DNA from: Pandoraea pnomenusa
GTDB lineage: Bacteria > Pseudomonadota > Gammaproteobacteria > Burkholderiales > Burkholderiaceae
Assembly (NCBI RefSeq): GCF_000767615.3
Contig: NZ_CP009553.3
Coordinates: forward strand, 3,782,001 to 3,846,000
DNA length: 64,000 bases
Reading direction: 5' to 3'
Position 1 is the stretch's first letter, and each line of letters starts with the position of its first letter. Made by a program: the position numbers and the translations under genes. Below the pieces are notes generated by a model. That model did no database searches. It was not told the origin of the DNA and saw only the letters and a program-made list of their open reading frames with translations. Below, one piece after another: positions 14,058-40,055 of this stretch.

Positions 14058-14308
14058 GCATCTCTCCAGAGGGCAACGGCACTAGCGCGTTGATGCGCAA
14101 TGAAGGGGGGCAGACGTAAGGAGTGTAGACCGCACTATCCATGCCAGGATACGGGGGAAATCTCATATTTGCGTGACGCGGCGATGTTTCCGATACGCCG
14201 TGGAGCGCGCGTTTTATCTAGTTGTTCGCTGTTTTCGGCGCTTGTCAGCCGACATCTTTTGATCGACTATCCGCAGCACGGGATAGGCCGCACATTCGGG
14301 GATACATC

Positions 14309-15367: not shown

Positions 15368-15704
15368 GGGTTTACGGGCGATCGAGGCGTTGCCGCGCAC
15401 GGCGCTTCACACGGAAAATTCGGTGTTACGTCGCCCGCAATGACGCGAGGAAAGGCGCGCCGGCGTCGCGGTGAAAAAAACGCGACGGCGCGAACCCGTC
15501 GATACGCCGCGAACAAAAGCGCGATAAATCCCGCGGGAAAACCGCTGCGATCCGGCGCGCAGCCTTGTGCGGCAAGCGCGCAACATTGTGCGCGCACTAC
15601 TCGCACGAAGCCATTTCTTAGGTAGAATCGTCGGCGCAGCAAGACGTATCATTCGGGTGGCCGTTCTCCGACGGCACTTTCTTATTCTCATCGATTGGAT
15701 CGAT
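15368..15704. other. Intergenic region upstream of the HU/H1-like gene
   Basis: About 340 bases with no convincing gene. A TAGAAT -10-like hexamer at 15623-15628 sits 77 bases ahead of the start codon and could belong to the promoter of the abundant DNA-binding protein. A matching -35 is not clear. Confidence 0.4.
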
Positions 15705-16175
15705 ATGGCAACGGCAAAGAAAGCAGCAGCAAAGAAGGCCCCTGTGGCGAAAAAGGCCCCGGCCGCCAAGAAGGCGCCGGCAGCGAAGAAGGCTGCTCCG
15801 AAGGCAGCCCCGAAGACCGCCGCGAAGGCAGCTCCGAAGGCCGCCGCGAACGGCAAGGTTTCGCCGATCAAGGAAGCACTCAACAAGACCCAGCTCGCAG
15901 CACACCTCGCCGAACAATCGGCAGTCGCCGTGAAGGAAGTCAAGGCAGTGCTCGCCGCACTCGAGAACACCATCATCAGCTCGCTGCACAAGAAGGGCGT
16001 CGGCGAATTCACGCTGCATGGTCTGTTCAAGGTCACGTCGCAGCAAATCGCCGCCAAGGCGAAGCGTTTCGGCAAGGACCCGTTCACGGGTCAAGAGCGC
16101 TGGTTCCCGGCCAAGCCGGCTTCGGTGCGCGTGAAGGTTCGCCCGCTGAAGAAGGTGAAGGACGCCGCCCAGTAA
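15705..16175 (+). CDS. HU-family nucleoid protein with histone H1-like N-terminal tail
   Basis: The product has 156 residues. Residues 1-50 are a Lys/Ala/Pro tail made of repeated AKKAPA/APKAA units, like bacterial and eukaryotic H1 tails. Residues about 52-152 form an HU/IHF-type fold (SPIKEALNKTQLAAHLAEQS, then VGEFTLHGLFKV and the basic arm ending FPAKPASVRVKVRPLKK). HU proteins are usually about 90 residues, so the tail is an added module, as known in several betaproteobacteria. It should bind and compact DNA with little sequence specificity. A strong terminator follows, consistent with a monocistronic, highly expressed gene. The repetitive tail gene is prone to length change. Confidence 0.92.
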   Translation: MATAKKAAAKKAPVAKKAPAAKKAPAAKKAAPKAAPKTAAKAAPKAAANGKVSPIKEALNKTQLAAHLAEQSAVAVKEVKAVLAALENTIISSLHKKGVGEFTLHGLFKVTSQQIAAKAKRFGKDPFTGQERWFPAKPASVRVKVRPLKKVKDAAQ

Positions 16176-16246
16176 GTCCTGCGCTCACGCCGCCGTGCAC
16201 GCCACGGCGCGACGAAAAGCGAAGGCCTGGCAGGCTGCGCCTGATA

Positions 16247-21565: not shown

Positions 21566-23056
21566 ATGGAAACGATACCGAAAATCATTTCGGCACCTGA
21601 TGCTGCGTCCGAACGCCCCGTGCCGCCACGTCCGCGTCAATACGACGCGCGGCTCGCACGCTGGCTCGTCACGCCGCTCGTCGACACACGCGTCACGCCG
21701 AACCACCTCACCACGCTTCGCCTGATCGTCGGCCTGGCCTGTACCTGGGCATTCGCGCAGGGTGGCTACGCCATGGCCAATCTGGGCGCGGTGCTGCTGG
21801 TACTGTCGAACTTCATCGATCACACCGACGGCGAGCTGGCGCGCATCAGCGGCAAGAGCAGCCGTATCGGCCATCTCTATGACCTGGCCTCCGACGCCCT
21901 GGTGACCGTGCTGCTGTTCGGTGGCATCGGCATGGGCGTGGATGCCATGGCCCCGGAGCAGTACCCGCTGCCCGTGCCGCTGTCGGCCTCGGCGCTCGGC
22001 TGGATCGCCGGCGTTGCCGTGGCGCTGATTTTCTTCCTGCGCATGCGCATCGAGGACCGCGTGGGCAAGGCCGGTACCCGTCAGGCCTCGGTCGGCGGAT
22101 TCGAGACCGAAGACGTGTTGTATCTCATGCCGCTCGTGACGCTGTTCGATGGCACACGTGGCTTTCTGATCGCCGCGGCGATCGGCGCGCCGGTCTTTGC
22201 GCTGTTGGTCATCGCCGATTATGTGCGCGTGATGCGTCGCGCGACGCACGCGAGCATGCTTGCGCCGGACACGGCCAACGGTGCCGCACCGGCGGCCCCA
22301 GTCTCCACCGAACCCGCCGCCTTCGCGGCCGACGCCGAAATCGAACGTGCGCTCGACGCCCTCGACATCGACGATGTCTCCCGTGAATTCAAATCGCAGG
22401 ACGCCTTCGTCTATCTCGAGAAATTCCTGCCGGAGTCGGTGACGCAGCAACTGATCGCCGCCGCGCGCGCGGTCACGCCGAACGTGAACCGCAACTATCT
22501 TCCCGGGCACAAGCAAGGCGGCAGCGTGAGCCGACATACGCTCGACGAGCGCGCGCCGTTCGTGGCCGAGCTGTATCGTTCGCCGGCCCTGATGCGGTTT
22601 CTCGAGCGGCTCGCCGGCGAAAAGCTGCTCCCCTCGCCGCAGGACGACCCGCACGCTTACGCGCTGTATTACTACACCCGCCCGGGCGACCACATCGGCT
22701 GGCACTACGACACTTCCTACTACAAGGGCCGCCGTTACACGCTGCTGCTCGGCGTGGTGGACCAATCGAGCTGCAAGCTCGAATACCGGCTCCACACGCG
22801 CAACCCGGGCGCCGCGCAGATCGACGGCGCCGTGGCGTATCCGCCGGGGGCGCTGGTGTTCTTCGACGGGGACAAGTTGCATCACCGGATTACGCCGCTC
22901 GGCGACAACGAAGAGCGAATCTCGCTCACGTTCGAGTACGTGACCGATCCTCGCATGGGCACCTGGCAGCGCTTCATCTCCAACATGAAGGACGCCATTG
23001 CCTACTTCGGATTCCGGCAAGTGTTTCGTCAAGTACTGGGACGGACGAAACGCTAG
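21566..23056 (+). CDS. CDP-alcohol phosphatidyltransferase fused to a 2OG-Fe(II) oxygenase
   Basis: The product has 496 residues. Residues about 25-230 are a multi-pass CDP-alcohol phosphatidyltransferase. The full signature DG-x2-AR-x8-G-x3-D-x3-D is present (Asp88-Gly89, Ala92-Arg93, Gly102, Asp106, Asp110). After an Ala/Pro linker (235-260), residues about 270-490 form a 2-oxoglutarate/Fe(II) oxygenase. Its candidate ligands are His380-x-Asp382 (GWHYD) and His439 or His440, with Arg451 (ERISLTF) as the 2-oxoglutarate anchor. As head of the phosphonate operon, the first domain should transfer a phosphonoalkyl group from a CMP-activated donor to a lipid alcohol. The second may hydroxylate the phosphonate (at C1 of aminoethylphosphonate) or the lipid. 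The stop abuts the next ATG. The start is uncertain (21545 also possible); neither has a clear Shine-Dalgarno sequence. Confidence 0.85.
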   Translation: METIPKIISAPDAASERPVPPRPRQYDARLARWLVTPLVDTRVTPNHLTTLRLIVGLACTWAFAQGGYAMANLGAVLLVLSNFIDHTDGELARISGKSSRIGHLYDLASDALVTVLLFGGIGMGVDAMAPEQYPLPVPLSASALGWIAGVAVALIFFLRMRIEDRVGKAGTRQASVGGFETEDVLYLMPLVTLFDGTRGFLIAAAIGAPVFALLVIADYVRVMRRATHASMLAPDTANGAAPAAPVSTEPAAFAADAEIERALDALDIDDVSREFKSQDAFVYLEKFLPESVTQQLIAAARAVTPNVNRNYLPGHKQGGSVSRHTLDERAPFVAELYRSPALMRFLERLAGEKLLPSPQDDPHAYALYYYTRPGDHIGWHYDTSYYKGRRYTLLLGVVDQSSCKLEYRLHTRNPGAAQIDGAVAYPPGALVFFDGDKLHHRITPLGDNEERISLTFEYVTDPRMGTWQRFISNMKDAIAYFGFRQVFRQVLGRTKR

Positions 23057-24079
23057 ATGAACCGGACCGCCATCGTCTCTCTCACCCTCGGTTTTGCCCT
23101 TTTCGTGGCCCTGCTGATCTGGCAGGGCACGGGATCGGTGATGTCCACGCTGGCCGGCGCCGGCTGGGGACTGCTGCCGATCGCCGCCTTCCACCTGGTG
23201 CCGTTGGTGCTCGACGCCGCCGCGATTCAGGTGCTGGTGGCAAAGTCGTGCTCGCTGCGCCGTGCCACGCTCACCCGCTGGGTCGGCGAATCGGCCAACA
23301 GCCTGCTGCCGGCCGGTCAGATCGGCGGACCGATCGCGATGGTTCGCCAGATGAAGCAAAACGGCATGGCCGGGCGCGAGGCGGCGGCGGGCATTACCGT
23401 GAGCACCACCTTGCAGGCCGTCGCCCAGATCGTTTTCGCGCTGCTCGGCCTGGCCGTGTTCGGCATTGGCGCGACGCGCGGCACCGGCGACGGCCTGTGG
23501 ATGCCGATGCTGCTGGCGACCGGGCTCATCTCCGTGCTGCTCTATGGGTTCTATGTGGCGCAACGACGCGGCATCTTCGGCTGGGCGTTCCGCACGCTCT
23601 CGAAAATGTCGTCTAAGCGCGACTGGTCGTCGCTGCTCGACCGCGCTGACGCCGTCGACGAGATCGTCCTGCGCATGTACGGCCAGCGCCGCCAGGTGAT
23701 TGCGAGTTTCCTGCTCAGCCTGGTCGGGTGGATCGTCGGCACGGCCGAAGTGTGGTTGATCTGCCATTTCATGGGCTTCCCGGTCAGCTGGGTCGACGCC
23801 CTGCTGCTCGAAAGCCTGGGCCAGGCGATTCGCGGCGCCGCGTTCTTCGTGCCGGGCTCGCTCGGCGTTCAGGAAGGCGGCTACCTGCTGCTCGCTCCGC
23901 TCGTGGGCCTGCCGGCCGACGCCGCGCTGGCCCTTTCACTGGCCAAACGCACGCGCGAGTTGCTGCTCGGCGTGCCGGGCCTCGTCTATCTGCATTTCTC
24001 CGAACGTGGCTGGCGTCGCCAGCGCGCGGCGCAACAAAGCGTGCCGCTGCCGTCCGCCACGGATACTGCACCGCTCTAA
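23057..24079 (+). CDS. hpnL: LPG-synthase-TM/UPF0104 family membrane protein, HpnL-like
   Basis: This 340-residue polytopic protein has about eight hydrophobic segments. The family landmarks are RWVGESANSLLPAGQIGGPIA (about 75-95) and the later ESLGQAIRGAAFFVPGSLGVQEGGYL. The family holds the flippase-like transmembrane part of lysylphosphatidylglycerol synthase without the catalytic domain, and a hopanoid-cluster member is called HpnL. No enzymatic domain is present. In this operon it is the best candidate to move the phosphonolipid, or a hopanoid, between membrane leaflets (inference). Its ATG follows the preceding stop directly, so expression is tightly coupled. The hpnL name is by family and hopanoid neighbourhood; the true function is open. 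Confidence 0.75.
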   Translation: MNRTAIVSLTLGFALFVALLIWQGTGSVMSTLAGAGWGLLPIAAFHLVPLVLDAAAIQVLVAKSCSLRRATLTRWVGESANSLLPAGQIGGPIAMVRQMKQNGMAGREAAAGITVSTTLQAVAQIVFALLGLAVFGIGATRGTGDGLWMPMLLATGLISVLLYGFYVAQRRGIFGWAFRTLSKMSSKRDWSSLLDRADAVDEIVLRMYGQRRQVIASFLLSLVGWIVGTAEVWLICHFMGFPVSWVDALLLESLGQAIRGAAFFVPGSLGVQEGGYLLLAPLVGLPADAALALSLAKRTRELLLGVPGLVYLHFSERGWRRQRAAQQSVPLPSATDTAPL

Positions 24080-24094
24080 AGAAGGAAATCGATC

Positions 24095-24859
24095 ATGCGG
24101 GCCATCATTCTCGCCGCAGGCATGGGCCTGCGTTTGCTCCAGCCCGAGGACAAGCAGTCGCCCAAGTGCCTGCTGAAGTTCGACGGCATGTCGCTGCTCG
24201 AGCGCCACCTGCGCATGCTGGCGGCCGCCGGTATCACCGACGTCGTGCTCGCGCTCGGCTTTCACCACGAACAGGTGAGCGAGGAGCTCGATCGCCTGAA
24301 CTGGACGCCGCGCCCGAAGATCTGCCTCAATCCCGAATTCCATCTCGGCAGCGTGCTCACGCTGCATACCGCCGCGGAGGCCATGACCGCCGGCGGCGAC
24401 GTGCTCGTCATGGACGCCGACGTGCTCTACGACCAGCGCATTTTCAACGCGCTCGTGGCCGGCGAGACCGCCAATCGCCTGCTCATCGACCGTGATTTCG
24501 AAGTCGGCGACGAGCCGGTCAAGCTATGTCTGCGCGACGGCGTACCGGTCGAATTACGCAAGCAGGTCATGGTCGGCCTGACGTACGACACGGTCGGCGA
24601 ATCCGTCGGCTTTTTCCGTTTCAACGAAGCGACGGCCTCGCGCCTTGCCGAAATCACGCGCGATTACGTCGAAACAGGCCGCGCCAAGATGCCGCACGAA
24701 GAGGCCGTGCGCGATCTGCTGCTCGAGCGCGGTGCGCAATTCGAGACCGCCGACGTCACCGGCTTCCCCTGGATCGAAATCGACTACCCTGAAGACGTGA
24801 AGCGTGCCGCCGAACAGGTGCTGCCGCAGCTCGAACCATTGACCATGGTGTCCGAATGA
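24095..24859 (+). CDS. Sugar-phosphate-type nucleotidyltransferase (probable CTP:phosphonate cytidylyltransferase)
   Basis: This 254-residue single-domain NTP transferase has the intact signature [13 protein letters not shown] near residues 4-16 and [18 protein letters not shown] (the PK lysine) at about 27-43. [10 protein letters not shown] (about 108-117) supplies the metal-binding Asp, and [15 protein letters not shown] closes the fold. Cytidylyl activation of 2-aminoethylphosphonate before transfer to a lipid or glycan is an established step in bacterial phosphonate pathways (PntC-type enzymes). Lying between the membrane genes and pepM, this intact domain is the best candidate for making CMP-aminoethylphosphonate. 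Its 3' end overlaps pepM by four bases (ATGA). Confidence 0.85.
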
Positions 24860-26565
24860 ACGCTCCCGACGCATTTACCCTCCCGCCGACGGCAACGCGC
24901 GCCGCGCGCCTGCGCGCCATGCTGCGCAGCCAGCAACTCGAATTTCTCATGGAAGCCCACAACGGCCTGTCCGCGCGCATTGTGCGCGAGGCGGGCTTCA
25001 AGGGCATCTGGGCATCCGGTCTGGCTATCTCGGCGCAGTTCGGCGTACGCGACAACAACGAAGCGAGCTGGACGCAAGTCGTCGACAACCTCGAGTTCAT
25101 GGCCGACGCGAGCGATCTGCCGATCCTGCTCGACGGCGACACCGGCTACGGCAACTTCAACAACATGCGGCGCCTCGTGCGCAAGCTCGAGCAGCGTGGC
25201 GTGGCCGGCGTCTGCATCGAAGACAAGGTCTTCCCGAAGACCAACAGCTTCATCGGTGGCGAGCGCCAGCCGCTGGCCGACGTCGACGAATTCTGCGGCA
25301 AGATCAAGGCAGGCAAGGACTCGCAGGGCGACGACGACTTCTCGATCGTCGCACGCGTCGAGGCCCTGATCGCAGGCTGGGGCATGGAAGAAGCCCTGCG
25401 CCGCGCCGAGGCGTACCGTCTGGCCGGCGCCGACGCCATCCTGATCCACAGCAAGCTCAAGCGTGCCGACGAGATCGTGCAGTTCGCCCGCGAATGGGAT
25501 AACCGCTGCCCGCTGGTGATCGTGCCGACCAAGTACTACAGCACCCCGACCGACGTTTTCCGGGACGCCGGCATCAGCGTGGTGATCTGGGCGAACCACC
25601 TGATCCGCGCGGCCACCTCCGCCATGCAGGCGGTCGCCGCGGAGATCCATCGCAGCGAAACGCTGGTCAACGTCGAGGACCGCATCGCGACCGTCGACGA
25701 GATTTTCCGCCTGCAGGACGCCGAGGAATACGCCCGGGCCGAAGATCGTTACCTGTCGGCCGCGAATGCGCCGCGCTCGGCCATCGTGCTGGCGGCGAGC
25801 CGTGGCAAGAATCTGGAAAGCGTGACGACCGATCGCCCGAAGGTGATGCTGCCTGTGGCCGGCAAGCCGCTGCTGCGCTGGCTGGTCGATGGCTTCAAGA
25901 AGCAGGGCGTGAACGACATCACGGTCGTGGGCGGCTACCGTGCCGACGCCATCGACACGGCCGGCATCACGCTGGCCGTGAACGAACGCCACGCCGAAAC
26001 CGGCGAACTGGCCTCGCTCGCGCAGGTGGCCAACGCGTTTGCGCACGACACCGTGATCTCCTACGGCGACCTGCTGTTCCGCAGCTACATCGTGCGCGAT
26101 CTGGTCGAGAGCGAGGCTGACTTTACCGTCGTGGTCGACTCGAGCGCCGCGACCACGGCCAACGCCGCGAACGCCAGCGTGCGCGACTTCGCCTATTGCT
26201 CGTCTGGCGACGATCGCGGGCTTTTCGGCCAGCAAGCGCGGCTCGAGAAGATCAGCGGCGACGCATCCGACGCCGGGCGCACACCGAACGGCCGCTGGAT
26301 CGGCCTGCTGGGCGTACGCGGCGACGACGGCCGCGCGCGACTCCAGCGTGTCTTCGCGGCGTTGCAGACGCGCCCGGATTTCGACCGGCTCGGCATGCCG
26401 GAGCTCATCAACGCGCTCGCGGCCGACGGCGCCGCCATCGCGGTGCAATACGTGCACGGCCACTGGCGAGGGGTGAACGACATGGAGGAATTCCGCCGCG
26501 CGGGCGACTTCGCCCACGGTCAGACGCCCTTCAGCGGCGCAGCGTCGGAGGCACAAGGTGATTGA
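24856..26565 (+). CDS. pepM: Phosphoenolpyruvate phosphomutase fused to a nucleotidyltransferase domain
   Basis: The product has 569 residues. Residues about 15-300 are PEP mutase, which isomerises PEP to phosphonopyruvate and forms the C-P bond. The diagnostic EDKx5NS motif is exact ([10 protein letters not shown], 122-131), and LDGDTGYGN (92-100) carries the magnesium-site residues. Residues about 308-555 are a second NTP-transferase domain ([20 protein letters not shown]). Its first loop reads LAASRGKNL instead of the usual LAAGxGxRL, so this domain may be impaired or have a changed nucleotide site. The intact stand-alone nucleotidyltransferase encoded just upstream could do that job. The gene overlaps its neighbours on both sides (4 and 8 bases). 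The PepM call is firm. Confidence 0.95.
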
Positions 26566-27745
26566 GGCGGGACAATTCGTCGAAGCCGCGCGCAAGCATG
26601 GCTTCACTTGGTACACCGGCGTGCCCTGCTCGTTCCTCACGCCGTTCATCAACTACGTGCTGCAAGACCCCACGCTGCACTATCTGTCGGCGGCCAACGA
26701 AGGTGACGCGGTCGCCATTGCGGCCGGCGCGACCCTCGGCGAGGGCCGTGGCGCCCGTTCGGTCACGATGATGCAGAACTCGGGGCTGGGCAACGCCGTG
26801 AGTCCGCTCACGTCGCTCACATGGACGTTCCGCCTGCCGCAGTTGCTGATCGTAACGTGGCGCGGCCAGCCCGGCATCACCGACGAACCCCAGCACGCCC
26901 TCATGGGCCCCATCACGCCGGCCATGCTCGATCTGATGGAAGTGCCCTGGGAGCTGTTCCCGACCGAACCCGAGGCGATCGCGCCCGCGCTGGCGCGCGC
27001 CGTTCGCCACATGGACGAGACCGGACGCCCCTACGCGCTCGTGATGCAAAAAGGCAGTGTGGCGCCTTACCCGCTGCAACCGGCCGAGCGTCCGGCGCGT
27101 GCGGCGCAGCCGGCGCCCGTGTCGATGATGCGCGGCGTCGCGCCGTCCGGGCTGCCGACCCGCCGCGACGCGCTCGAACGCGTGATCGCTCACACGCCGC
27201 TCGAAGGCACGGTGGTGCTGGCGTCCACGGGCTTTTGTGGACGCGAGCTCTACGCACTCGGTGATCGCGCCAACCAGCTGTACATGGTCGGCTCGATGGG
27301 ATGCGTCACCACGCTGGCGCTGGGCCTGGCGCTCGCACGTCCGGACCTGCGCGTGGTCGCGCTCGACGGCGACGGGGCCGCGCTCATGCGCATGGGCGCA
27401 TTCGCGACCCTGGGCGCCTATGGTCCGTCCAACCTCGTCCATCTGCTGCTCGACAACGCCTCGCACGACTCTACCGGCGCCCAGGCCACCGTCTCGCCGA
27501 GCGTTTCCTTCGCGGGCGTGGCCGCCGCCAGCGGCTATGCGCTCGCGCTCGAGGGCGACACGCTCGACGTGGTCGAGGCACTGTTCGACGCCCGCACGGC
27601 CAGCCTGAGCGAAGGCCCGCGTTTCGCGTGCCTGAGCACTCGCCCGGGTACGCCAGACGGGCTGCCGCGGCCGAAGGTCACGCCCGAGACGGTCAGGGCG
27701 CGACTGATGGACCATATTGCACAACGCGCCCCGGCTTCGGCCTGA
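26558..27745 (+). CDS. ppd: Phosphonopyruvate decarboxylase
   Basis: This 395-residue ThDP-dependent enzyme decarboxylates phosphonopyruvate to phosphonoacetaldehyde, the step that pulls the unfavourable mutase reaction forward. The N-terminal half has [14 protein letters not shown] and the ThDP-activating glutamate in [30 protein letters not shown] is typical of this enzyme. The C-terminal half carries the ThDP/Mg motif [18 protein letters not shown] ending about 27 residues later in [10 protein letters not shown]. The start is GTG 26558, overlapping the pepM stop by eight bases; the reading MIEAGQF matches the usual start of the family. Both halves are on one chain, as expected. Confidence 0.94.
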
Positions 27746-27785
27746 GCGACCGATCATTCACGATATCCGACGAGGAAGCTTCGCC

Positions 27786-28859
27786 ATGCTGTTACTGAAT
27801 CCGGGCCCCGTTACGCTGACCGAGCGCGTCCGCAAGAGCTTGCTGCAACCCGACCTGTGCCACCGCGAGCCGGAATTCTTCGATTTGCAGGAAGAAGCCC
27901 GCACGCGCCTGAACGCCGTGTACGGCCTCGACCCCGCAGTTTGGACGCCGGTGCTGATGACCGGCTCGGGCACGGCCGCCGTGGAGAGCATGACCGCCGG
28001 ACTCGTGCCGGAAGGCGGGCGTTTGCTGATCGTCGAGAATGGCGTTTACGGCGAACGGATCTCACAGATCGCCAGGCAGTACCGCATCGATCACGACATT
28101 CTCCATTTCGAGTGGATGCAGGCGCCCGATCTCGCGCAGATCGAGGCCAAGCTCGACGCGGCCGGGGATCGTCCGTACACGAATGTCGCGATCATCCACC
28201 ACGAAACCACCACGGGCCGCCTGAATGCGCTCGCGGGTGTGGCAGCCGCGTGCCGCGCGCGTGGCATCGACCTGCTCGTCGACGGCGTGAGCAGCTTCGC
28301 GGCCGAAGCCATCGACTTCGACGATACGGCGATTGCCGCCGTGGCCGCCACCGCGAACAAATGCGTGCACGGCGTGCCGGGGGTGTCGTTCGTGATGGTG
28401 CGCAAGACGGCGCTGGCCAAGGCCTTCAGTCGCACGTATTACCTCGACATCGCGCGCCTGGCCAAGCTGCAGGCCGAGCGCAACACGCCGTTCACGCCTT
28501 CCGTGCATGCGTACTACGCGCTGGTCGAAGCGCTGCGCGAACTCGAAGACGCCGGCGGCTGGCAAGCGCGCCATGCTCACTACGCCTCGCTGGCCGAGCA
28601 GGCGCGCGCCGGTCTGGCCGCACTGGGCATCGACAGCGTGCTCCCGCCCAACGAGTCGTCGGTCGTGCTGCGCGCGTACAAGCTGCCCGCGGGGGTGGAC
28701 TATCCGCGCCTGCATGACTGGCTCAAGGCCGACGGCTTCGTGATCTATGCAGGCCAGGGCGGCCTGTCCAGCGAACTGTTCCGCATCTCGACGATGGGCA
28801 ACCTCACGTCCGCCGACATCGACCGCCTGCTCGCTTCGTTCGCCCGCCTGGTGAAGTGA
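27786..28859 (+). CDS. phnW: 2-aminoethylphosphonate:pyruvate transaminase
   Basis: This 357-residue class V PLP aminotransferase starts [15 protein letters not shown], the typical beginning of PhnW-type enzymes. [12 protein letters not shown] (phosphate-binding loop), [20 protein letters not shown] (cofactor Asp) and the PLP lysine in [12 protein letters not shown] are all visible. In degradation the enzyme converts aminoethylphosphonate to phosphonoacetaldehyde. Next to pepM and ppd it should run in reverse to make 2-aminoethylphosphonate. No phosphonatase (phnX) gene is in the window, which supports the biosynthetic direction. The ATG is at 27786, 40 bases after ppd. Confidence 0.93.
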
Positions 28860-28881
28860 GCGCGGGGACGGACGTTCAGCC

Positions 28882-30828
28882 ATGACCGATTTGCTAGCCA
28901 GCATCCACTCCCCGACCGATCTGCGCGCACTGTCGCGCGCCGACCTGCGGCGCCTGGCCGACGAGCTGCGCGCCTGCGTGCTCGAAAACGTCTCGCGCAC
29001 CGGCGGGCATCTCTCGTCGAACCTCGGCACTGTCGAGTTGACGATCGCCCTGCACTACGTCTTCGATACCCCCAACGATCGCATCGTCTGGGATGTGGGA
29101 CACCAGACGTACCCGCACAAGATCCTCACGGGACGCCGCGAGGCCATGCCCTCCCTGCGTCAGTGGCAAGGCTTGTCGGGCTTTCCCAAGCGTGACGAAT
29201 CGCCATACGACACGTTCGGCACGGCGCATTCGAGCACGTCGATTTCCGCCGCGCTGGGCATGGCGCTGGCGAGCAAGGTCAAGGGCGAGAAGCGACATTC
29301 GATCGCCGTGATCGGCGACGGCGCCATGACGGCGGGCGAAGCGTTCGAGGCGCTCAACAACGCCGGCGTGTACGACGACCTGCCGTTCCTTGTCGTGCTC
29401 AACGACAACGACATGTCGATCTCGCCGCCGGTGGGCGCGCTCAATCAATATCTCACGCGCCTGATGTCCGGCCAGTTCTATTCGGCGGGCAAGGAAAGTG
29501 TGCGCAATCTGTTGCGCAATGCCCCCGCGCCCATGCGCGAGCTGGCCCACCGGCTCGAAGAGCATGCGAAAGCCATCGTCTCGCCCACGGGCACGATGTT
29601 CGAAGAGTTCGGCTTCAACTATCTTGGTCCCATCGACGGCCACGATCTCGACGCCCTCATCCCCGCGCTGGAAAACATCAAGGCGCTCAGGGGCCCGCAG
29701 TTTCTGCATGTCGTCACGCGCAAGGGGCGCGGATACAAGCTCGCCGAGGCCGACCCCGTGCTGTACCACGGCCCGGGCAAGTTCAACCCGAGCGAAGGCA
29801 TTCGCCCCGCCGCACCGGGCACCGCGGCGGCCAGGACGTACACGCAGGTCTTCGGCGAGTGGTTGTGCGACGCCGCGGCGGCGGACAAGCGCGTGGTGGG
29901 CATCACCCCCGCCATGCGCGAAGGCTCCGGGCTCGTCGAATTCGAGAAGCGTTTTCCCGAGCGGTATTACGACGTCGGCATTGCCGAACAGCACGCAGTC
30001 ACGTTTGCGGGCGGGCTCGCGACCGAGGGGCTGCGGCCTGTGGTCGCCATCTACTCGACGTTCCTGCAACGCGGCTACGACCAGTTGATTCACGACGTCG
30101 CCTTGCAGAATCTGCCAGTCGTCTTCGCGATCGACCGCGGCGGCCTGGTCGGCGCCGATGGCGCCACGCATGCGGGTGCGTACGACATGGCCTATCTGAG
30201 ATGCATTCCGAACATGGTCGTCATGGCGCCGGCCGACGAAAGCGAATGCCGCCAGATGTTGCAGACGGCGCTCGGCATCGAGGGCCCCAGCGCCGTGCGC
30301 TATCCGCGCGGCACGGGTCCCGGCGTCAAGACCGAAGCGCAGCTGTCGACGTTGCCCTTGGGACGGGCGCAGACACGCCGACGCAGCGCCGCCCCGGCGG
30401 GCCGTCGTGTGGCCATCCTGGCCTTTGGTTCGATGGTGGCGCCAGCGGAGCAGGTGGCCGGCGAGTTCGACGCGAGCGTGCTTAACATGCGCTTCGTCAA
30501 GCCGCTGGACGAAGCGGCGGTGCTGGAGGTCGCGCGCACGCACGATCTCGTTGTCACGCTGGAGGAAGGGGCGATCATGGGTGGCGCGGGCACGGCGTGT
30601 GTCGAAGCGCTCAATGCCCACGGCGTGCAGGTGCCGGTGCTGCAACTGGGACTGCCCGATATTTACATCGATCAGGGCACGCCCGCGCAGCAGCTCGCGT
30701 CGGTCGGCCTGGACGCCACGGGCATCGCGGCGTCGATCCGTCGCGCGCTGGCCGCGCGCCTCGGCGGCAAGGTCGAGGCCGTCGGGACAGGCGTCGCGGG
30801 CGAGGCGCTCGACTCGCCGCACCCGTAA
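28882..30828 (+). CDS. dxs: 1-deoxy-D-xylulose-5-phosphate synthase
   Basis: This 648-residue enzyme is the first of the MEP isoprenoid pathway, condensing pyruvate and glyceraldehyde 3-phosphate. The ThDP domain shows [31 protein letters not shown] and [20 protein letters not shown]. The transketolase-type middle domain has [19 protein letters not shown]. Length is normal (about 620-640). It is the last gene of the phosphonate operon, 22 bases after the transaminase, and just before the hopanoid block, where extra isoprenoid precursor would be needed. Hopanoid loci often carry a dxs copy. Whether this is the only dxs of the genome cannot be told here. A strong terminator follows. Confidence 0.96.
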
Positions 30829-30877
30829 GCGCGAAGTGCATCACGGCCCCTCGGACGCCCAGGGGGCCGGTCCCGAA

Positions 30878-30909
30878 AGAAAAACGGCACCTCGCGGTGC
30901 CGTTTTTCT
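30878..30909. terminator. Rho-independent terminator after dxs
   Basis: Arms AGAAAAACGGCACC (30878-30891) and GGTGCCGTTTTTCT (30896-30909) with loop TCGC, about 50 bases after the dxs stop. The A-rich left side means it could also end the convergent hpnN transcript. Confidence 0.9.
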
Positions 30910-30954
30910 TGCCTAAGCAAATCCGTCGACCGATTCGCAGGCGCGTCCGTGCCG

Positions 30955-33618
30955 TCAGGATTTCGGTGGCGGCACGTGAGGCTCGCGCGGCTTGCCCATG
31001 AGCACGGGCTGGAAGAACACGGCGCCGATGAGCGTGCACACCAGCGACAACGCCAGCAGCTTGCCCATGCTCGACGTGCCCGGGTGGTGCGAGAGCCACA
31101 GGCTGCCAAAGGCGATGCCGGTGGTGGCGGCGGACAGTACGATCGCCTGCGTGAGGCTCGACGCCAACAACCGCGTCTTGCCTTCGCGCCAGGCAATCAC
31201 GTAGTAGATCTTGAAAGCCACGCCCACGCCAAGCAGCAACGGCAGCGCGATGATGTTCGCGAAGTTCAGCGGCAGCCCGATCAGCACGGAAATCTCCAGC
31301 GTGACCGCCGCCGAGACCAGCAGCGGCACGAGCGTGCGCAGCACGTCGCCAAACTTGCGCAGTGCCAGCCAGAGCAACACGGTGATCGAAAGCAGCGCCC
31401 AGGCGCCCGCCTCGATGAACGAGCGGATGATGGTGTCGGCCGAGCGAAGAATCGAGATCGGCCCGCCGACGGCGTCCGGGGTCGTCGCCAGCACGGCTGC
31501 GCTGAACTTGCGCAGCATGGCGTCGTCGCTCGGATCGGCGCCCTTGTCAACGCGCGGCGAGATATTCACGAGCGCACGGCCGTCAGCCGCCACCCATTGC
31601 GAGACGATGTCGCGAGGCAGCGTCTCGCGCGTGACCTCGTGCGGCTGCAACGCATCGCGCAGTTGGCCGAGCGCCAGCTTGAGCGGGTCGGCAATCGCGC
31701 GATCCGCACGGTCGCGCGTGGCGGCGTCGGCCGCCGCCAGTTTGCGCAGCGCAGCGGCAAGGCGCTGGGCCTCCCTGGCGCCTTCGCCCGGATGATCGAG
31801 CGCGGCATCTTCCAACTGCCCCGCTGCCGTCCTGAGCGACGACACGCGGGCGGCGTCCGCCCCCGGCGCGAGCGGCGTTTGCGTGAGCACCGGCATGAGC
31901 GACGCGGAGGCCGTGGCAATTTGCGCGAGCTTGGCCGGCTGATCGGCCGGCATGAACGTCGTGAGCGTGACCACGCGGCCCACCTCGGGCACCGCGCGAA
32001 GCCTTGCGGCATCGGCGTCGGCGGCGGCGAGATTCGGTGCGAGCAGTTGCACGTCGTTTACGCCGGCCTCCGGCGAGTTGGCCAGGTCGTTGAGCGTGGC
32101 CATCGACTCGGTCTTCGGGTCCTTCAGGTGAAGCGGATTGAAGTCGAAGTGCAGATGCGCGAGCAGCGGCAGACCGGCCACCACCAGCGCCAGCGTGCCG
32201 TACAGCAGCGGATTGCGGTACCTTTCGGTGAAATCGTCCACCCGGCCGAGGCTGCGAAAGCCCGGCGGGCTGGCCTCGCCCCTGGGCTTGAGCACGCTGA
32301 TGAGCGCAGGCAGCAAGGTGATGGCCGACGGGAAGGCTACGCACAGAATCCCCACACCGGCGATCAACCCGAGTTCGGACACACCGCGATAGTCGGTCGG
32401 CAGAAACGAGAAGAAGCTCGCGGCCGTGGCGGCGGCGGCCAGCGACAACGGCATCGCAATCGCGCGGCCCGCGGCAACGAGCGCGCCGCGCAACGCTGCT
32501 TCGCCCTCGTGCCCCGCCTTGCCGCCGCGCTCACCAGCCTCGCCACGGGCGTCCCACCGATGGCGCTCCTCGCGGTATCGCACACCGAACTGGATACCGA
32601 AGTCCACGCCGATGCCAACGAACAGCACCGCGAACGCGACCGAGATCATGTTGAGCGCGCCGACCATCATCAGGCCCAGCGCAAATGTGACGGCCAGTCC
32701 GGCGAGCAGCGTAATGAACACCGCCAGAATCATCTTGCCCGAGCGCACCGCCAGCCAGAGCACGACCAGCACGGCAAGCAGCGTGATGACGGCGTTCGGA
32801 CCGGCGTCCTCGCGCACCGAGGCAAACTCCTCGTCGGACAGCGGCCGCGACCCGGTCAGGCGCACCCGGGCGCCGTAGCGCTCGGCAAGCTTGAGCTCGG
32901 CCGCGGCCTCGCGAATGCGCGTGGCCGCGTTCGCCCCGGCTTCGAGCGACGCGTAGTCGACCACCGGCTGCACCTGCACATAACTGCGCGCCACGGTGTC
33001 GGGCGTGACGAGCCCGCGCCAGGACATCGCCGCCGCACGACCGGCCAGCACGGCCTCGGTCGTATCGGCCGCGTGTCCCAGAAGGTCGCGCATGTCCGCA
33101 AGCTTCACCTGCCCGGTGAGCAGCGGCGTTTGCAGCGTGACCGACAGCAGGTTCGACAGGCCGGTCAGGCTCGGGTCCTGCGCCAGACGATTGAGCAGGG
33201 GCTTGGCGTCTTCGAGCTTCCCTGTGAGCGACTTCACGTCGTCCAGCGTCGCGAAGAGCAACGCATTGTGCGCGAAGAATTCGCCCGCTCCCGGCCGGCT
33301 CACCGCACGAAACACGTCGGTCTCGGTCGCGAGTCGGGCGGCCAGCTCGGCGGCCGCCTTGTCCGCGAACTCCACGGCGGGCGCGTCCACGACGGCCAGC
33401 GTCATGTCGGTTTTCTGCGGGAAGGCACGATCGATCTCGCGGCCACGCTCGGCGGCCGGCGTGTTCGAGTCGATCAGGCTCGAAATGTCGGTGTTGATCG
33501 CAAAATGTTTGGCGACGTACACACAACTCGCCATCACGAGCAGCAGCGAAGCGAAGATGACCGGGTACGCGTGCTTCGCCGAAAATCGGACGATGCGTAC
33601 CACGAGCGAAGTCAGCAT
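30955..33618 (-). CDS. hpnN: Hopanoid RND transporter HpnN
   Basis: This 887-residue RND-type inner-membrane protein belongs to the MmpL-like group with two sterol-sensing-like transmembrane bundles. There is an N-terminal helix ([22 protein letters not shown]), a first periplasmic domain (about 50-265), five to six helices ([16 protein letters not shown] onward), a second periplasmic domain (about 455-700) and a closing bundle ([19 protein letters not shown]). [15 protein letters not shown] (about 345-360) holds the acidic residue of the proton relay. HpnN moves hopanoids to the outer membrane in other bacteria. The start ATG 33616-33618 gives the normal length; longer in-frame starts add a non-homologous leader. 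It is divergent from hpnM. Confidence 0.94.
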
Positions 33619-33841
33619 GTAGCGGTTCCGGAAGGTAAAGACGGTGTCTCCGCCGCGCTCGCAGCCCCCAAACACGTAACGAAACGTTAGCCGGAGGGCC
33701 TGGCGGGGAACCAATCGCGGACGTTGTCCGTCGATCAGCCATTGAAACGCGGGGAAACGGTGTATTGACGAAATCGCAGCAGTATACAAGGCCGCGTGCA
33801 CTACACTACCGCCTACCCGATTTAAACCGACGATCTCAGGT

Positions 33842-34486
33842 ATGAACAAATTCCTCGTGACAGCATTCAGCGCTGTCGCCTTCAGCGGCATCGGCATGTC
33901 GAGCGCCTGGGCGCAGGCCGGCACGTCCAATCCGAACGACATGGTGAAAACGGCCGTCGAGACGGTCGTCAAGGCCGCCAAGGCCGACCCTGCCGCGCGC
34001 GACGGCGACGTGGCGGCCACGGCCCGCGTGGTGGCGCGCGACTTTCTGCCCTACACCGATTTCCTTCGCACCACGCGCTACGCGGTCGGCCCGAAGGCCT
34101 TCGACAGCGCCACGCCGGCGCAGCAGCAGCAAGTCTTCGAACAGTTCCAGCAACTGCTGGTCAATACCTTCGCCCTGCAACTCTCGCAGGTGCGCGGCAC
34201 ACAGATTTCGTTCAAGTTCGCCCCGGCCAAACTCACCGCGACCAGCAACGACGTCGTGGTCGGCGCCACGGTCAGCGGCACCGGCGACAATCTGTCGGTG
34301 GCCTACCGATTGGCAAAAACCGACAAGGGCTGGAAGATCTACGACATCAACATGATGGGCGAGAACGTGGCCAATGCCTGGCTCATCCAGTTGTATCAAC
34401 CTCAGTTCAAGGCGCGCATCGAGCAGGGTGGCATCGACAGCCTGATTGGCTACCTGCGCGAGAAGAACGCAAGATTTGGCAAATAA
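33842..34486 (+). CDS. hpnM: HpnM, MlaC-like hopanoid-associated periplasmic protein
   Basis: This 214-residue protein has a signal peptide (about 1-25, cleavage near SAWAQA) followed by an MlaC/Ttg2D-type lipid-binding domain. [40 protein letters not shown] and [22 protein letters not shown] are typical of the family. MlaC proteins shuttle phospholipids across the periplasm; the hopanoid-cluster version is thought to pair with the RND protein HpnN, whose gene is divergent across 223 bases. It starts a plus-strand series with ispH and hpnH but is separated from ispH by 391 bases. Confidence 0.92.
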
Positions 34487-34877: not shown

Positions 34878-35837
34878 ATGCAAGTCATACTTGCCCAACC
34901 CCGCGGGTTTTGTGCGGGTGTCATACGTGCGATCGATATCGTCGAGCGCGCCCTGGAAAAATACGGCGCCCCCGTCTACGTGCGTCATGAGATCGTCCAC
35001 AACAAGCACGTGGTCGACTCGCTCAAGGCCAAGGGCGCGCGCTTCATCGACGAGTTGTCCGAAGCCCCCGCGGGCGCTGTCACCATCTTCAGCGCGCACG
35101 GCGTCGCGCGCGTCGTCGAACAGGAAGCGGAAGTCCGCGGCCTGAAGGTGCTCAATGCGACCTGCCCGCTCGTGACGAAGGTGCACATCCAGGGCAAGAA
35201 TTACGTGTCCGCGGGCCGCGAAGTCATTCTGATCGGTCACGCCGGCCACCCGGAAGTCGAAGGGACCATGGGGCAGATCGACGGCCCCGTGCACCTGGTG
35301 CAGACCGAGGACGATGTGGATGCGCTCGCGCTCGCCATCGACACCCCGGTGTCGTACGTGACGCAGACCACGCTGTCGGTCGACGAGACTCGCGGTATCA
35401 TTGCTGCGCTGCAACGTCGTTTTACCGACATCGTCGGCCCGAACACCAAGGACATCTGCTATGCCACGCAGAACCGCCAGACCGCCGTGCGCGAGCTGTG
35501 CGAGCGTGTGGAGGTGCTGCTCGTGGTCGGCGCGACGAACAGCTCGAATTCGAACCGCCTGCGCGAAATCGGCGCCGAAATGGGGCTGCCGAGCTACCTT
35601 GTGGCCGATGGCTCCGAGGTAAATCCGGAATGGGTACGCGGTCAGGCCCGCATCGGCATTACCGCGGGGGCGTCCGCGCCCGAGCGCATGGTCGAAGACG
35701 TGATCGACGCGCTGCGTCGCATCGACACGGTCGAAGTGACTCTCATGGACGGCATCGAAGAAACCATTCAGTTTCGCCTGCCGTCGGAATTGACCAAAGA
35801 CGAGCCGGTTACCGCGCGCCACGCGGTCGCCGGCTAA
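34878..35837 (+). CDS. ispH: 4-hydroxy-3-methylbut-2-enyl diphosphate reductase
   Basis: This 319-residue iron-sulfur enzyme is the last of the MEP pathway and makes IPP and DMAPP. The three cluster cysteines are visible in [11 protein letters not shown] (Cys13), [12 protein letters not shown] (about Cys97) and [10 protein letters not shown] (about Cys196). Conserved substrate-site stretches are [38 protein letters not shown] and TNSSNSNRL. It sits 23 bases ahead of hpnH, so it is probably co-transcribed with the hopanoid genes and, with dxs, supplies the isoprenoid units. The ATG is preceded by CCGGAGAG. Confidence 0.97.
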
Positions 35838-35860: not shown

Positions 35861-36982
35861 TTGGCCATCCCCTTTCTCCAACAGGCGTACGTTGGCGCCT
35901 ACCTGATGAAGCAACGCTTCAAGGGCAACAAGCGCTACCCGCTGGTGCTCATGCTCGAACCGTTGTTCCGTTGCAACCTCGCCTGCTCGGGCTGCGGCAA
36001 GATCGATTATCCGGACCCCATCCTGAATCAGCGCGTCTCGCTCAAGGAATCGCTCGACGCGGTCGACGAGTGCGGCGCCCCGGTTGTCTCCATTGCCGGT
36101 GGCGAGCCGCTGCTGCACAAGGAAATGCCGCAGATCGTCAAGGGCATCATCGAACGCAAGAAGTTCGTGTATCTCTGCACGAACGCACTGCTGCTCGAGA
36201 AAAAGATCGACGATTACGAGCCGAGCCCGTTCTTCGTTTGGTCGATCCACCTCGACGGCGACCGTGAAATGCACGACGCGGCCGTGTCCCAGGAAGGTGT
36301 GTACGACCGTGCCGTGGCCGCCATCAAGCTGGCCAAGTCGCGCGGCTTCCGCGTGAACATCAACTGCACGCTGTTCAACAACGCCGATCCCGAGAAAGTC
36401 GCCAGGTTCTTCGATTCGACCAAGGACCTGGGTCTCGACGGCATTACCGTCTCGCCGGGCTATGCCTACGAGCGCGCCCCGGATCAGCAACACTTCCTGA
36501 ATCGCTCGAAGACCAAGCAGTTGTTCCGCGACATTCTCAAGCGCGGTGACGGTGGCAAGAAGTGGACGTTCAGCCAGTCGAGCCTGTTCCTCGACTTCCT
36601 CGCCGGCAACCGCTCGTATCACTGCACGCCGTGGGGCAACCCGACGCGCACCGTGTTCGGCTGGCAGCGCCCGTGCTACCTGCTTGGCGAAGGCTACGCG
36701 AAGACGTACACGGAACTGATGGAAACCACCGACTGGGACAAGTACGGCGTGGGCAACTACGAGAAGTGCGCGGACTGCATGGTCCACAGCGGCTTCGAAG
36801 CCACTGCCGTGAACGAGACGATGTCGCACCCGCTGCGCGCGCTGGGCGTGGCGCTCAAGGGCGTGCGCACCGACGGTCCGATGGCCGACGACATCTCGTT
36901 CGCAAAGCAGCGGCCGGCCGAGTACGTGTTCTCGAAGCACGTCGAGATCAAGCTCGACGAACTGCGCCGGGCCAAGGCGTAA
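35861..36982 (+). CDS. hpnH: Hopanoid radical SAM enzyme HpnH (adenosylhopane synthase)
   Basis: This 373-residue radical SAM protein joins the 5'-deoxyadenosyl group to diploptene to give adenosylhopane, the first step of side-chain extension. The cluster motif CxxxCxxC is present as CNLACSGCGK (about 39-48), followed by SIAGGEPLLH for SAM binding. HpnH-typical stretches include FVWSIHLDGDREMHD and TPWGNPTRTVFGWQRPCY, and a cysteine-bearing C-terminal part (YEKCADCMVHSGFEA). The start is TTG 35861-35863, because CAGGAG lies six bases upstream and MAIPFLQQAYVG is the expected N-terminus. hpnA starts at the base after the stop. Confidence 0.96.
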   Translation: MAIPFLQQAYVGAYLMKQRFKGNKRYPLVLMLEPLFRCNLACSGCGKIDYPDPILNQRVSLKESLDAVDECGAPVVSIAGGEPLLHKEMPQIVKGIIERKKFVYLCTNALLLEKKIDDYEPSPFFVWSIHLDGDREMHDAAVSQEGVYDRAVAAIKLAKSRGFRVNINCTLFNNADPEKVARFFDSTKDLGLDGITVSPGYAYERAPDQQHFLNRSKTKQLFRDILKRGDGGKKWTFSQSSLFLDFLAGNRSYHCTPWGNPTRTVFGWQRPCYLLGEGYAKTYTELMETTDWDKYGVGNYEKCADCMVHSGFEATAVNETMSHPLRALGVALKGVRTDGPMADDISFAKQRPAEYVFSKHVEIKLDELRRAKA

Positions 36983-37978
36983 ATGCCGTCGCGAGTGCTG
37001 GTCACCGGCGCCTCCGGGTTCGTCGGTTCCGCGGTGGCTCGCACGGCGCTTGCACGCGGTCACGAGGTTCGCCTGCTGGTGCGTGGCTCCAGCCCCCGCG
37101 CGAATCTCGCCGATCTGCCTGTCGAGGTCGTGGAAGGCGACATGCGCGACGCTGCCTCGATGCAACGCGCGCTCGCCGGATGCGACGCCCTGCTCCACGT
37201 CGCCGCCGATTATCGACTCTGGGCAAAAGATCCCAACGACATCATGCGGGCCAATATCGACGGTACGCGCACGGTGATGGACGCCGCGCTGCGCGCCGGC
37301 GTCCAGCGCGTGGTGTATACGAGCAGCGTAGCCACGCTGCGCGTGCACGATGCCGTCGGCCCGGTCGACGAAACCCGCCCGAACGACGAAGCCACGACCA
37401 TCGGCGTCTACAAGCGCAGCAAGGTCGCGGCCGAGCGACTGGTCGAGCGCATGATCGCCAACGACGGCCTGCCGGCCGTCATCGTCAATCCGTCCACCCC
37501 GATCGGCCCGCGCGACATCAAGCCTACGCCGACCGGACGCATCATCGTAGAAGCGGCGCAGGGCAAGATTCCGGCGTTCGTCGACACCGGCCTGAATCTC
37601 GTGCATGTCGACGACTGCGCCGAAGGGCACTTGCTGGCGCTGGAGCGCGGCCGCATCGGCGAGCGCTACATTCTCGGCGGCGACGATGTGCTGCTGCGCG
37701 ACATGCTCGCCGGCATTGCCGACATGGTCGGCCGCAAGGCGCCCACGATCGCCCTGCCGCGCTGGCCGCTCTACCCGCTGGCGATGGCCGCGCAAGGCGT
37801 GGCGCGCTTCACGGGCAAGGAGCCCTTCGTGACGGTCGACGGCCTGAAGATGTCGCGCTATCACATGTTCTTCTCGTCGGAGAAGGCCAGGCGCGATCTC
37901 GGCTACACTGCCCGCCCCTACGCCGACGGCCTGCGCGATGCGCTTGCCTGGTTTGGTTCCGCTGGATATCTCTCATGA
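36983..37978 (+). CDS. hpnA: Hopanoid-associated sugar epimerase HpnA
   Basis: This 331-residue extended SDR begins MPSRVLVTGASGFVGSAVAR (NAD-binding TGxxGFxG). The active-site serine lies in VYTSSVATLR and the Tyr/Lys in TTIGVYKRSKVAAE (YxxxK). GARFTGKEPFVTVDG-type sequence near the end (ARFTGKEPFVTVDGLKMSRY) is typical of HpnA. It is named for its presence in hopanoid loci; a role in the sugar or polyol part of the hopanoid side chain is assumed, not proven. It overlaps hpnB by four bases (ATGA) and directly follows hpnH, giving a compact ispH-hpnH-hpnA-hpnB operon. Confidence 0.94.
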   Translation: MPSRVLVTGASGFVGSAVARTALARGHEVRLLVRGSSPRANLADLPVEVVEGDMRDAASMQRALAGCDALLHVAADYRLWAKDPNDIMRANIDGTRTVMDAALRAGVQRVVYTSSVATLRVHDAVGPVDETRPNDEATTIGVYKRSKVAAERLVERMIANDGLPAVIVNPSTPIGPRDIKPTPTGRIIVEAAQGKIPAFVDTGLNLVHVDDCAEGHLLALERGRIGERYILGGDDVLLRDMLAGIADMVGRKAPTIALPRWPLYPLAMAAQGVARFTGKEPFVTVDGLKMSRYHMFFSSEKARRDLGYTARPYADGLRDALAWFGSAGYLS

Positions 37979-39332: not shown

Positions 39333-40055
39333 TCAGATACCCGCCGCGTCCGCACCGAAGCCTTCGCCCAACTTGAGCGCGACGATCTGGCGGCCATGGC
39401 GCAGCGCCTGCCTGGCGCGGCCGGCGTCCTGTCCGACGCGCAGTAGCGCGGGCAGTTGCCTCGGATTGGCGGCGAGCGAGCGCAGCACGCCGAGGATATC
39501 GGTGGAACCGTCGCTGCGCATGCCCGCCAGCGCCGCCGGCGGCAACGTCCGCTCGGCCGGATCGATCACTACCCGCGCCACCACGAACGGCAGGCCGTGC
39601 GCGTGAGCGACACGCGCGACGATGTGCGACTCCATGTCGGCCGCCGCCGCCCCGCTCTCGCGGAACAGGGCTGCCTTGTCGCCCACGCTGACCACCGGCG
39701 CCGTCACGCCCGCCATGTCGGCACGCAGGGCGCCGGGCATCGCGCGATGCAACGCGTCGGCCCAGGCGATGGACGTGACATACTCGTGCGCCTGTCGCGG
39801 CATGTCGAGTACCTTGTGCGCGATGACCCACTGCCCGGGCGTCAGACCGGGAATCAGCCCACCGGCCGTGCCGAAGCTCACCAACCCGCGCGCGCCGCCC
39901 GAGGAGGCGATCGCTCCCTCCAGATCGGCGGCAAGCGTGGCATTTTGCGCGCACACCACCCGTACGCCGTCGCCGCGCGCAATGCGCGCCTCGAACGGCA
40001 TGCCGGTCACCACGATGACGGAGGGACGCATGAGTGTTTGCGCGCGCTTGGTCAT
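39333..40055 (-). CDS. hpnG: HpnG, adenosylhopane nucleosidase
   Basis: This 240-residue protein belongs to the nucleoside phosphorylase/MTA-SAH nucleosidase superfamily. GMPFEARIARG, GLVSFGTAGGLIPGLTPGQWV (purine-site glycine loop) and AADMESHIVARVAHAHGLPFVVARVV (active-site ADMES) are clear. HpnG removes adenine from adenosylhopane, following HpnH, and so opens the way to ribosylhopane and bacteriohopanetetrol. The start ATG 40053-40055 overlaps the shc stop by one base, so translation is coupled; a later ATG (MRPSVIV, 40031) is possible. The C-terminus is a little longer than the core fold and ends FGADAAGI. Confidence 0.92.
   Translation of the reverse strand: MTKRAQTLMRPSVIVVTGMPFEARIARGDGVRVVCAQNATLAADLEGAIASSGGARGLVSFGTAGGLIPGLTPGQWVIAHKVLDMPRQAHEYVTSIAWADALHRAMPGALRADMAGVTAPVVSVGDKAALFRESGAAAADMESHIVARVAHAHGLPFVVARVVIDPAERTLPPAALAGMRSDGSTDILGVLRSLAANPRQLPALLRVGQDAGRARQALRHGRQIVALKLGEGFGADAAGI

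Follow-up and report, generated by a model that had tools for sequence, protein, structure and literature searches.

The Pnt pathway, known through the PntC enzymes of Treponema denticola and Atopobium rimae (Rice et al. 2019, PMC6697681), combines a fusion of phosphoenolpyruvate (PEP) mutase and nucleotidyltransferase (PepM-PntC) with a phosphonopyruvate decarboxylase (Ppd), a 2-aminoethylphosphonate (AEP) transaminase and an AEP cytidylyltransferase. Counterparts of all four are encoded by a seven-gene operon of Pandoraea pnomenusa, which is the subject of this work. The operon occupies positions 21566-30828 of the window, the whole 64,000-nucleotide stretch that was analysed (G000:C1:3782001-3846000, from a genome of one contig, 5.39 Mb). 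Whereas the Pnt clusters, as described in that paper, carry LicD-like transferases or glycosyltransferases, the operon has a cytidine diphosphate (CDP)-alcohol phosphotransferase (CDP-OH-PT), an oxygenase and the membrane protein HpnL. The reading favoured here, with moderate confidence, is that it equips an extended hopanoid with a phosphonate headgroup.

Related systems differ in informative ways. The HpnI-HpnJ-HpnK cyclitol-ether pathway (PMC12583986) is likewise a C35 hopanoid headgroup module with its own HpnL paralogue, but its cap is a sugar-derived cyclitol, whereas that of the present operon would be a phosphonate. The 1-hydroxy-AEP (HAEP) lipid reported from Bdellovibrio stolpii (Watanabe 2001, cited in PMC8154272) also has a hydroxylated AEP headgroup and is also bacterial, but is a sphingolipid. 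The squalene-hopene cyclase (SHC) of Roseomonas has been linked to a PEP mutase, with decarboxylase and aminotransferase genes beside the mutase, and an undiscovered terpene-phosphonate was proposed (Guzman and Vilcinskas 2021, PMC8776678); as described there, those hybrid clusters come without the transferase, oxygenase, HpnL, acceptor or a link to Burkholderiaceae. Apart from that study, a literature search that left subscription journals largely outside found no paper joining hopanoid and phosphonate pathways; as far as it shows, the complete make-up of the module and its spread, the oxygenase, the pattern of HpnL and the exchange with HpnJ are new here. A preprint on the Burkholderia phosphonate flavophos (PMC12871164) was considered and set aside; the cluster that it describes is another one.

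Gene identities and catalytic motifs

The seven genes were confirmed on the forward strand with spacings of 0, 15, -4, -8, 40 and 22 bases, in keeping with the first-pass annotation of this DNA, which had claimed one strand and gaps of at most 40 bases. Window proteins were searched against TIGR profiles with curated cut-offs, and the three enzymes of the AEP route that had been proposed all scored above them: PEP mutase (TIGR02320, 409.8 bits against 319.55; EDKx5NS motif exact), phosphonopyruvate decarboxylase (TIGR03297, 438.3 against 312.5) and AEP aminotransferase (TIGR03301, 369.2 against 360.8), the last of these from an open reading frame (ORF) that starts with TTG and is open already from 27717. 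Dxs scored 841.9 bits (TIGR00204, cut-off 465.95). The membrane protein previously noted as flippase-like belongs to a family that had been missed, HpnL (TIGR03476, 339.4 bits against 195.65).

Gene 1 encodes a fusion. Its CDP-OH-PT domain (approximately residues 24-226 of 496) contains the complete signature DGx2ARx8Gx3Dx3D, verified as DGELARISGKSSRIGHLYDLASD, and the fold agrees. Among known systems, the AF2299/CEPT1-type enzymes are close to it, from which gene 1 differs by the fused oxygenase, seen in Pandoraea and in records named Steroidobacteraceae; matches to cholinephosphotransferase 1 and CEPT1 themselves were not significant (E 0.11-0.18). Among named relatives of gene 1, the closest are Pandoraea proteins. 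The fusion is not general: among 29 oxygenase ORFs from other loci, it was found in L071 and L102, and L103 has the stop codon in common with the fusion, but the end of the locus cuts the gene.

The oxygenase domain (approximately residues 249-485 of 496; Pfam HalD match at residues 329-444 of the 557-residue gene 1 ORF) had been overlooked. It has the fold of the BesD/HalD amino-acid halogenases and hydroxylases, with the HxD...H...R motif intact. In the radical halogenases of this group, the Asp of the facial triad is replaced by Gly or Ala. No such replacement was seen here: H380-Y-D382 is invariant in 47 of 47 aligned oxygenase sequences, as are H440 and R451 (496-residue numbering). As the Asp is kept, the domain is hydroxylase-like.

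Both nucleotidyltransferase domains that had been noted are present, but they are not equivalent. The best solved relative of gene 3 is T. denticola PntC (6pd1), aligned over residues 2-246. In the one pairwise alignment from which residues were read, R15, K25, K153 and E196 of PntC are kept as R13, K24, K156 and E202 and E104 corresponds to Asp107, so that four of the five residues checked are retained (the roles of the AEP-site residues are those given in PMC6697681). Of the PntC consensus GxG(T/S)Rx4-8PK, the GxG is present and is followed by Leu in place of Thr or Ser; gene 3 also resembles inositol-phosphate cytidylyltransferases. The domain fused to PepM (window 25756-26565) is nearest to LicC, and the consensus Arg of the pyrophosphate site is missing in five of five aligned sequences. 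Because gene 3 keeps the PntC-like residues and the fused domain is without the consensus Arg, gene 3 looks like the better candidate for synthesis of cytidine monophosphate (CMP)-AEP, and the fused domain may have weak or altered activity or a structural role. Thus not every PepM-nucleotidyltransferase fusion need be an active cytidylyltransferase.

Distribution with hopanoid genes

A sample of 200 Burkholderiaceae genomes was searched for PepM-PntC, HpnH, HpnL and HpnJ. This PepM-PntC protein was present in 110 (a 111th row, G384, a weak 42% match with a stop, is excluded), HpnH in 135, HpnL in 134 and HpnJ in 91. All 110 PepM-bearing genomes contained HpnH. The 135 genomes with HpnH comprised 67 with PepM and HpnJ, 43 with PepM only, 24 with HpnJ only and one with neither; i.e., PepM or HpnJ was present in 134 of 135. 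When HpnJ was shuffled within genera, a mean of 8.1 genomes had neither, and none of 5000 shuffles gave a number as low as one. The genus of the window has 20 PepM-only and two HpnJ-only members, and genus g4 has eight and 12, respectively, and the one member with neither. The window's own genome gave no match to HpnJ (TIGR03471) at E <= 1e-80.

HpnL follows the same pattern. Its carriers in the family sample are exactly the 134 PepM-or-HpnJ genomes, and the sole sampled HpnH-bearing genome with neither module (G292, locus L240) is also without HpnL. At least two HpnL copies were found in 65 of the 67 genomes with both modules, and one copy in 41 of the 43 PepM-only genomes. In seven HpnL-centred loci, HpnI-HpnJ-HpnK is followed by its own HpnL; two further loci have HpnJ, an HpnI-like gene and HpnL without an HpnK match. 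In a tree of 71 HpnL sequences (stretches shorter than 230 amino acids or with a stop left out; some long branches unsure), all 61 sequences with the PepM-module label fall on the same side of a single branch (100/95), and shuffled labels required a mean of 9.6 changes; one of two rows with the label ‘other’ is L093, an HpnIJK locus that was not searched for HpnJ. The copy counts, locus positions and tree therefore indicate that HpnL goes with a headgroup module. At 9.2-11.4 kb of locus L105 (G277), an HpnI-like glycosyltransferase (43%) stands with HpnL and without an HpnJ or HpnK match; this may be a further headgroup module for hopanoids.

Six of the seven genes are conserved together, as the operon interpretation had anticipated. 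The order CDP-OH-PT, oxygenase, HpnL, gene 3, PepM-PntC, Ppd, AEP transaminase was kept on one strand in 16 of 20 PepM loci fetched from the family; two loci were cut at contig ends and two, from genus g124, were split in two. The first-pass annotation had also counted dxs in the operon. It is present in the window and adjoins the module in L103, L079 and L085 as well, and lies near it in the alphaproteobacterial loci L161, L167 and L169, but as a conserved member it was rejected: it is absent beside the module in L102, from the same genus, and in most other genera fetched.

The module extends beyond Burkholderiaceae. In a sample of 200 genomes from the order, PepM exceeded the cut-off in seven, and the four of these outside the family (G026, G081, G092, G123) all had SHC and HpnH, the SHC match of G092 being in two pieces just under the cut-off. 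SHC, hpnH and hpnA lie within approximately 15 kb of pepM in G092. In G081 and G092 (L089, L090), a PhyH protein, from a different branch of the 2-oxoglutarate (2OG) oxygenases, stands between the CDP-OH-PT and gene 3; G026 has a BesD-type oxygenase as a separate gene. Among 398 genomes of a phylum sample, PepM was found in 21 (E <= 1e-70), SHC in 49 and both in nine. The notion that any pepM in a hopanoid producer represents this module was discarded, as the loci of G528 and G586 contain another pepM type without a CDP-OH-PT. The module was not seen in 13 pepM loci from 12 SHC-negative genomes, a set without the weaker second pepM copies, in which L136 had a partial CDP-OH-PT match (30% identity, covering one third of the domain). 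PepM-PntC gave a single match (41% identity) in 106 genomes of the gammaproteobacterial family f60, which contains an SHC-positive genome.

A genome-collection scan with a PepM-PntC alignment (first sequence from Acetobacteraceae bacterium KSS8) yielded 581 confirmed loci, 80 of which are covered by the counts given here, with genes labelled by tblastn using window and fetched proteins. SHC, hpnH, hpnN or hpnA lay within 29 of the 80 loci: 26 of the 41 with a CDP-OH-PT against three of the 39 without. For the 38 full-length loci, the corresponding counts were 18 of 23 and zero of 15. In several Rhodospirillales metagenome-assembled genomes (MAGs; L199, L203, L215), the order is hpnB, hpnCD, SHC, hpnG, hpnH, ispH, hpnA, gene 3, PhyH, PepM-PntC, Ppd, AEP transaminase, two CDP-OH-PTs, hpnN, a third CDP-OH-PT and HpnL, with both strands used. 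Isolates with the module beside hpn genes include Roseomonas aerilata (L161), Plastoroseomonas hellenica (L169), Skermanella aerolata (L172) and Caulobacter sp. S45 (L163). When 50 genomes carrying this PepM type were tested, SHC was present in 43, with 41 matches above the cut-off. In 47 of the 50, the locus itself contained no SHC, hpnH, hpnN or hpnA; the short loci L202, L222, L224 and L228 were left out. SHC was found in 15 of 16 genomes whose locus has a CDP-OH-PT and in 28 of 34 whose locus has none, and SHC alone therefore does not separate the two kinds of locus.

Several alphaproteobacterial clusters (L199, L203, L212, L215, L216 and others) have two or three CDP-OH-PTs, and the one on the opposite strand is often without the last signature Asp (e.g., DHFDGELAR...GYYLDY..G). 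Locus L160, titled Mycobacterium sp. KBS0706, has a cluster of hpn genes and pepM, and the HpnL encoded there falls among those of Alphaproteobacteria; the Mycobacterium label is probably wrong. The PepM-PntC fusion also occurs in L227 and L229, titled as Verrucomicrobia or Verrucomicrobiota MAGs, with SHC in both genomes. In L148 (Acetobacteraceae), the phosphonate genes are followed at 12256-16237 by a gene for an MlaA lipoprotein (Pfam) and a large ORF that we take to be AsmA-like; MlaA and AsmA are both of lipid-transport type.

Proposed pathway and competing explanations

From these observations we infer the reactions, their order, the site of hydroxylation, the acceptor and the role of the flippase, as follows. 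PEP mutase, phosphonopyruvate decarboxylase and AEP transaminase would form AEP. The oxygenase, BesD/HalD-type here and PhyH elsewhere, would hydroxylate AEP or CMP-AEP, probably at C1, to give HAEP. This step is suggested because two different oxygenase branches occupy the same slot and because HAEP has precedents: PhnY* forms R-HAEP in catabolism (PMC8154272), and the Bdellovibrio lipid has been mentioned. Gene 3 would activate the phosphonate with cytidine triphosphate, and the CDP-OH-PT domain would move it from its CMP carrier onto one of the hydroxyls of bacteriohopanetetrol, likely that at C35. HpnL may then flip the capped hopanoid over the inner membrane, with HpnN and HpnM carrying it outward. 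The scheme of the first-pass annotation (AEP synthesis, CMP activation, transfer to a lipid alcohol and movement of the product) agrees with the gene content and its conservation but omitted the oxygenase step. Its choice of acceptor between diacylglycerol and a hopanoid now leans towards the hopanoid, given HpnH in every sampled PepM genome of the family, the coincidence of HpnL with PepM or HpnJ, and modules inside alphaproteobacterial hpn clusters.

The phosphonate module may be an alternative to, or a companion of, the HpnIJK cyclitol-ether cap. Whether phosphonohopanoids constitute a new lipid class is an evenly balanced question: they would be bacteriohopanepolyols capped by AEP or HAEP, made by a module found across Alpha- and Betaproteobacteria (records of Steroidobacteraceae and Verrucomicrobiota also show signs of it), exchangeable for the cyclitol-ether cap and served by HpnL as the flippase common to hopanoids that bear a headgroup. 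Hopanoids are sterol-like membrane lipids and bacterial biomarkers in rocks, and the phosphonates of the phosphorus cycle form a large pool that is in part unexplained. A hopanoid with a phosphonate cap would bring the two fields together, provide a zwitterionic headgroup resistant to phosphatases, account for many orphan pepM genes and give a testable role to HpnL, whose function had not been established according to a survey from 2025 (PMC12583986). The hopanoids of G292 should then bear neither cap, and the PepM-or-HpnJ pattern would make the purpose of hopanoid headgroups testable in close relatives that differ in their cap.

A number of observations weigh against this interpretation. A survey of pepM neighbourhoods for linkage to hpn genes had been suggested, and its outcome ruled out general linkage in Burkholderiaceae: pepM and hpnH are at most 20 kb apart in just 25 of 110 genomes (for G341, one piece of a gene broken across two contigs was used), and these 25 include all 20 PepM-bearing genomes of the window's own genus. 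Six of the 20 fetched loci contained hpn genes (L071, L076-L079, L085), and three of the four genomes outside the family (G026, G081, G123) showed no hpn core gene in their 20-kb locus. The co-occurrence counts are drawn from a single family and lack phylogenetic independence, and HpnL copy number fits less well in HpnJ-only genomes, 10 of 24 of which have more than one. Seven of the 50 genomes tested gave no SHC match: the MAGs L174, L189, L204 and L207, two Stappia and Agrobacterium cavarae, the last three having no CDP-OH-PT in the locus. CDP-OH-PTs commonly act on glycerolipids, and a tetrol capped at C35 should, by our own expectation, still be cleaved by periodate. In the literature searched, no phosphonate lipid or CMP-AEP was reported from carrier organisms. 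The chemistry described for Skermanella aerolata, the same strain as L172, where the module lies next to hpnA and hpnN, is of known bacteriohopanepolyols, cyclitol-ether types among them although hpnI, hpnJ and hpnK were undetected in the genome; periodate (Rohmer) treatment gave no hopanol product, and ‘phosphon’ is absent from the main text (PMC12583986).

The chief competitor, itself unlikely, is a glycerophosphonolipid, in which diacylglycerol would receive AEP or HAEP from CMP through the CDP-OH-PT, in the way that CEPT1 of eukaryotes uses CDP-ethanolamine, to give a phosphonate analogue of phosphatidylethanolamine serving the same membranes as the hopanoids. Membership of the same superfamily, the CEPT1 and cholinephosphotransferase 1 matches of gene 1, non-significant as they are, and the distance of the operon from hpnH in most sampled Burkholderiaceae are all consistent with it, but it leaves unexplained the restriction of PepM to HpnH-bearing genomes, the complementarity of PepM and HpnJ, the presence of HpnL in both modules and the loci inside hpn clusters. 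It is improbable that there are two products, with AEP passing to glycan or protein by PntC-type chemistry and the CDP-OH-PT, HpnL and gene 3 placing some other CMP-activated phosphate on the hopanoid. That arrangement would suit genus g124, where all eight genomes examined have CDP-OH-PT, oxygenase, HpnL and gene 3 without PepM in the 20-kb locus around HpnL, as well as the inositol-phosphate cytidylyltransferase likeness of gene 3 and the multiple CDP-OH-PTs of several alphaproteobacterial loci. The single run on one strand in one order in 16 of 20 Burkholderiaceae loci argues against it, as does the fact that the best full-length solved relative of gene 3 is the AEP enzyme PntC.

A phosphonoglycan or secreted phosphonate, with an accidental hopanoid neighbourhood, is very improbable. 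Most described pepM clusters have been assigned to cell-wall glycans and lipids (PMC6697681), and other pepM clusters of the phylum sample showed no hopanoid link. However, family scans of the seven operon genes returned no glycosyltransferase or LicD match, the CDP-OH-PT and HpnL belong to membrane-lipid families, and the hopanoid linkage recurs in Alpha- and Betaproteobacteria with differing gene orders.

Neighbouring features

Features of the operon and its surroundings (window positions)
Feature	Position	Strand	Basis
Gene 1, CDP-alcohol phosphotransferase + 2OG-Fe(II) oxygenase fusion	21566-23056	+	Pfam, motifs, fold
Gene 2, HpnL, hopanoid-associated flippase-like membrane protein (LPG_synthase_TM)	23057-24079	+	TIGR03476; distribution; tree
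Gene 3, standalone PntC-like nucleotidyltransferase	24095-24859	+	best solved relative 6pd1
Gene 4, PEP mutase + LicC-like nucleotidyltransferase domain (from about residue 305)	24856-26565	+	TIGR02320
Gene 5, phosphonopyruvate decarboxylase	26558-27745	+	TIGR03297
Gene 6, AEP aminotransferase (ATG at 27786)	27786-28859	+	TIGR03301
Gene 7, dxs, isoprenoid supply	28882-30828	+	TIGR00204
Predicted bidirectional intrinsic terminator between dxs and convergent hpnN	30877-30910	both	stem + fold score
hpnN, RND-type hopanoid exporter	30955-34020 (ORF; true start possibly further in)	-	first-pass name, without family search
hpnM	33842-34486	+	first-pass name, without family search
ispH	34878-35837	+	first-pass name, without family search
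hpnH, adenosylhopane synthase (C35 hopanoids)	35888-36982	+	TIGR03470, 546.8 bits
hpnA	36983-37978	+	TIGR03466, 495.7 bits
Squalene-hopene cyclase (SHC)	40055-42127	-	TIGR01507, 746.7 bits at G000:C1:3822091-3824025

Hopanoid genes do follow the operon directly, as had been stated. hpnH and hpnA were identified by family, hpnN is convergent with the operon, and the names hpnN, hpnM and ispH are retained from the first-pass annotation. The strong terminator described at the end of the operon was also recovered, as a 15-bp stem without mismatches, closed by a 4-base loop and bordered by A/T-rich sequence. The 100-nt stretch around it folds with z = -4.3, beating 200 of 200 shuffles. A simple terminator scan missed this hairpin because the T run sits within the stem, and the element is predicted to work in either direction.

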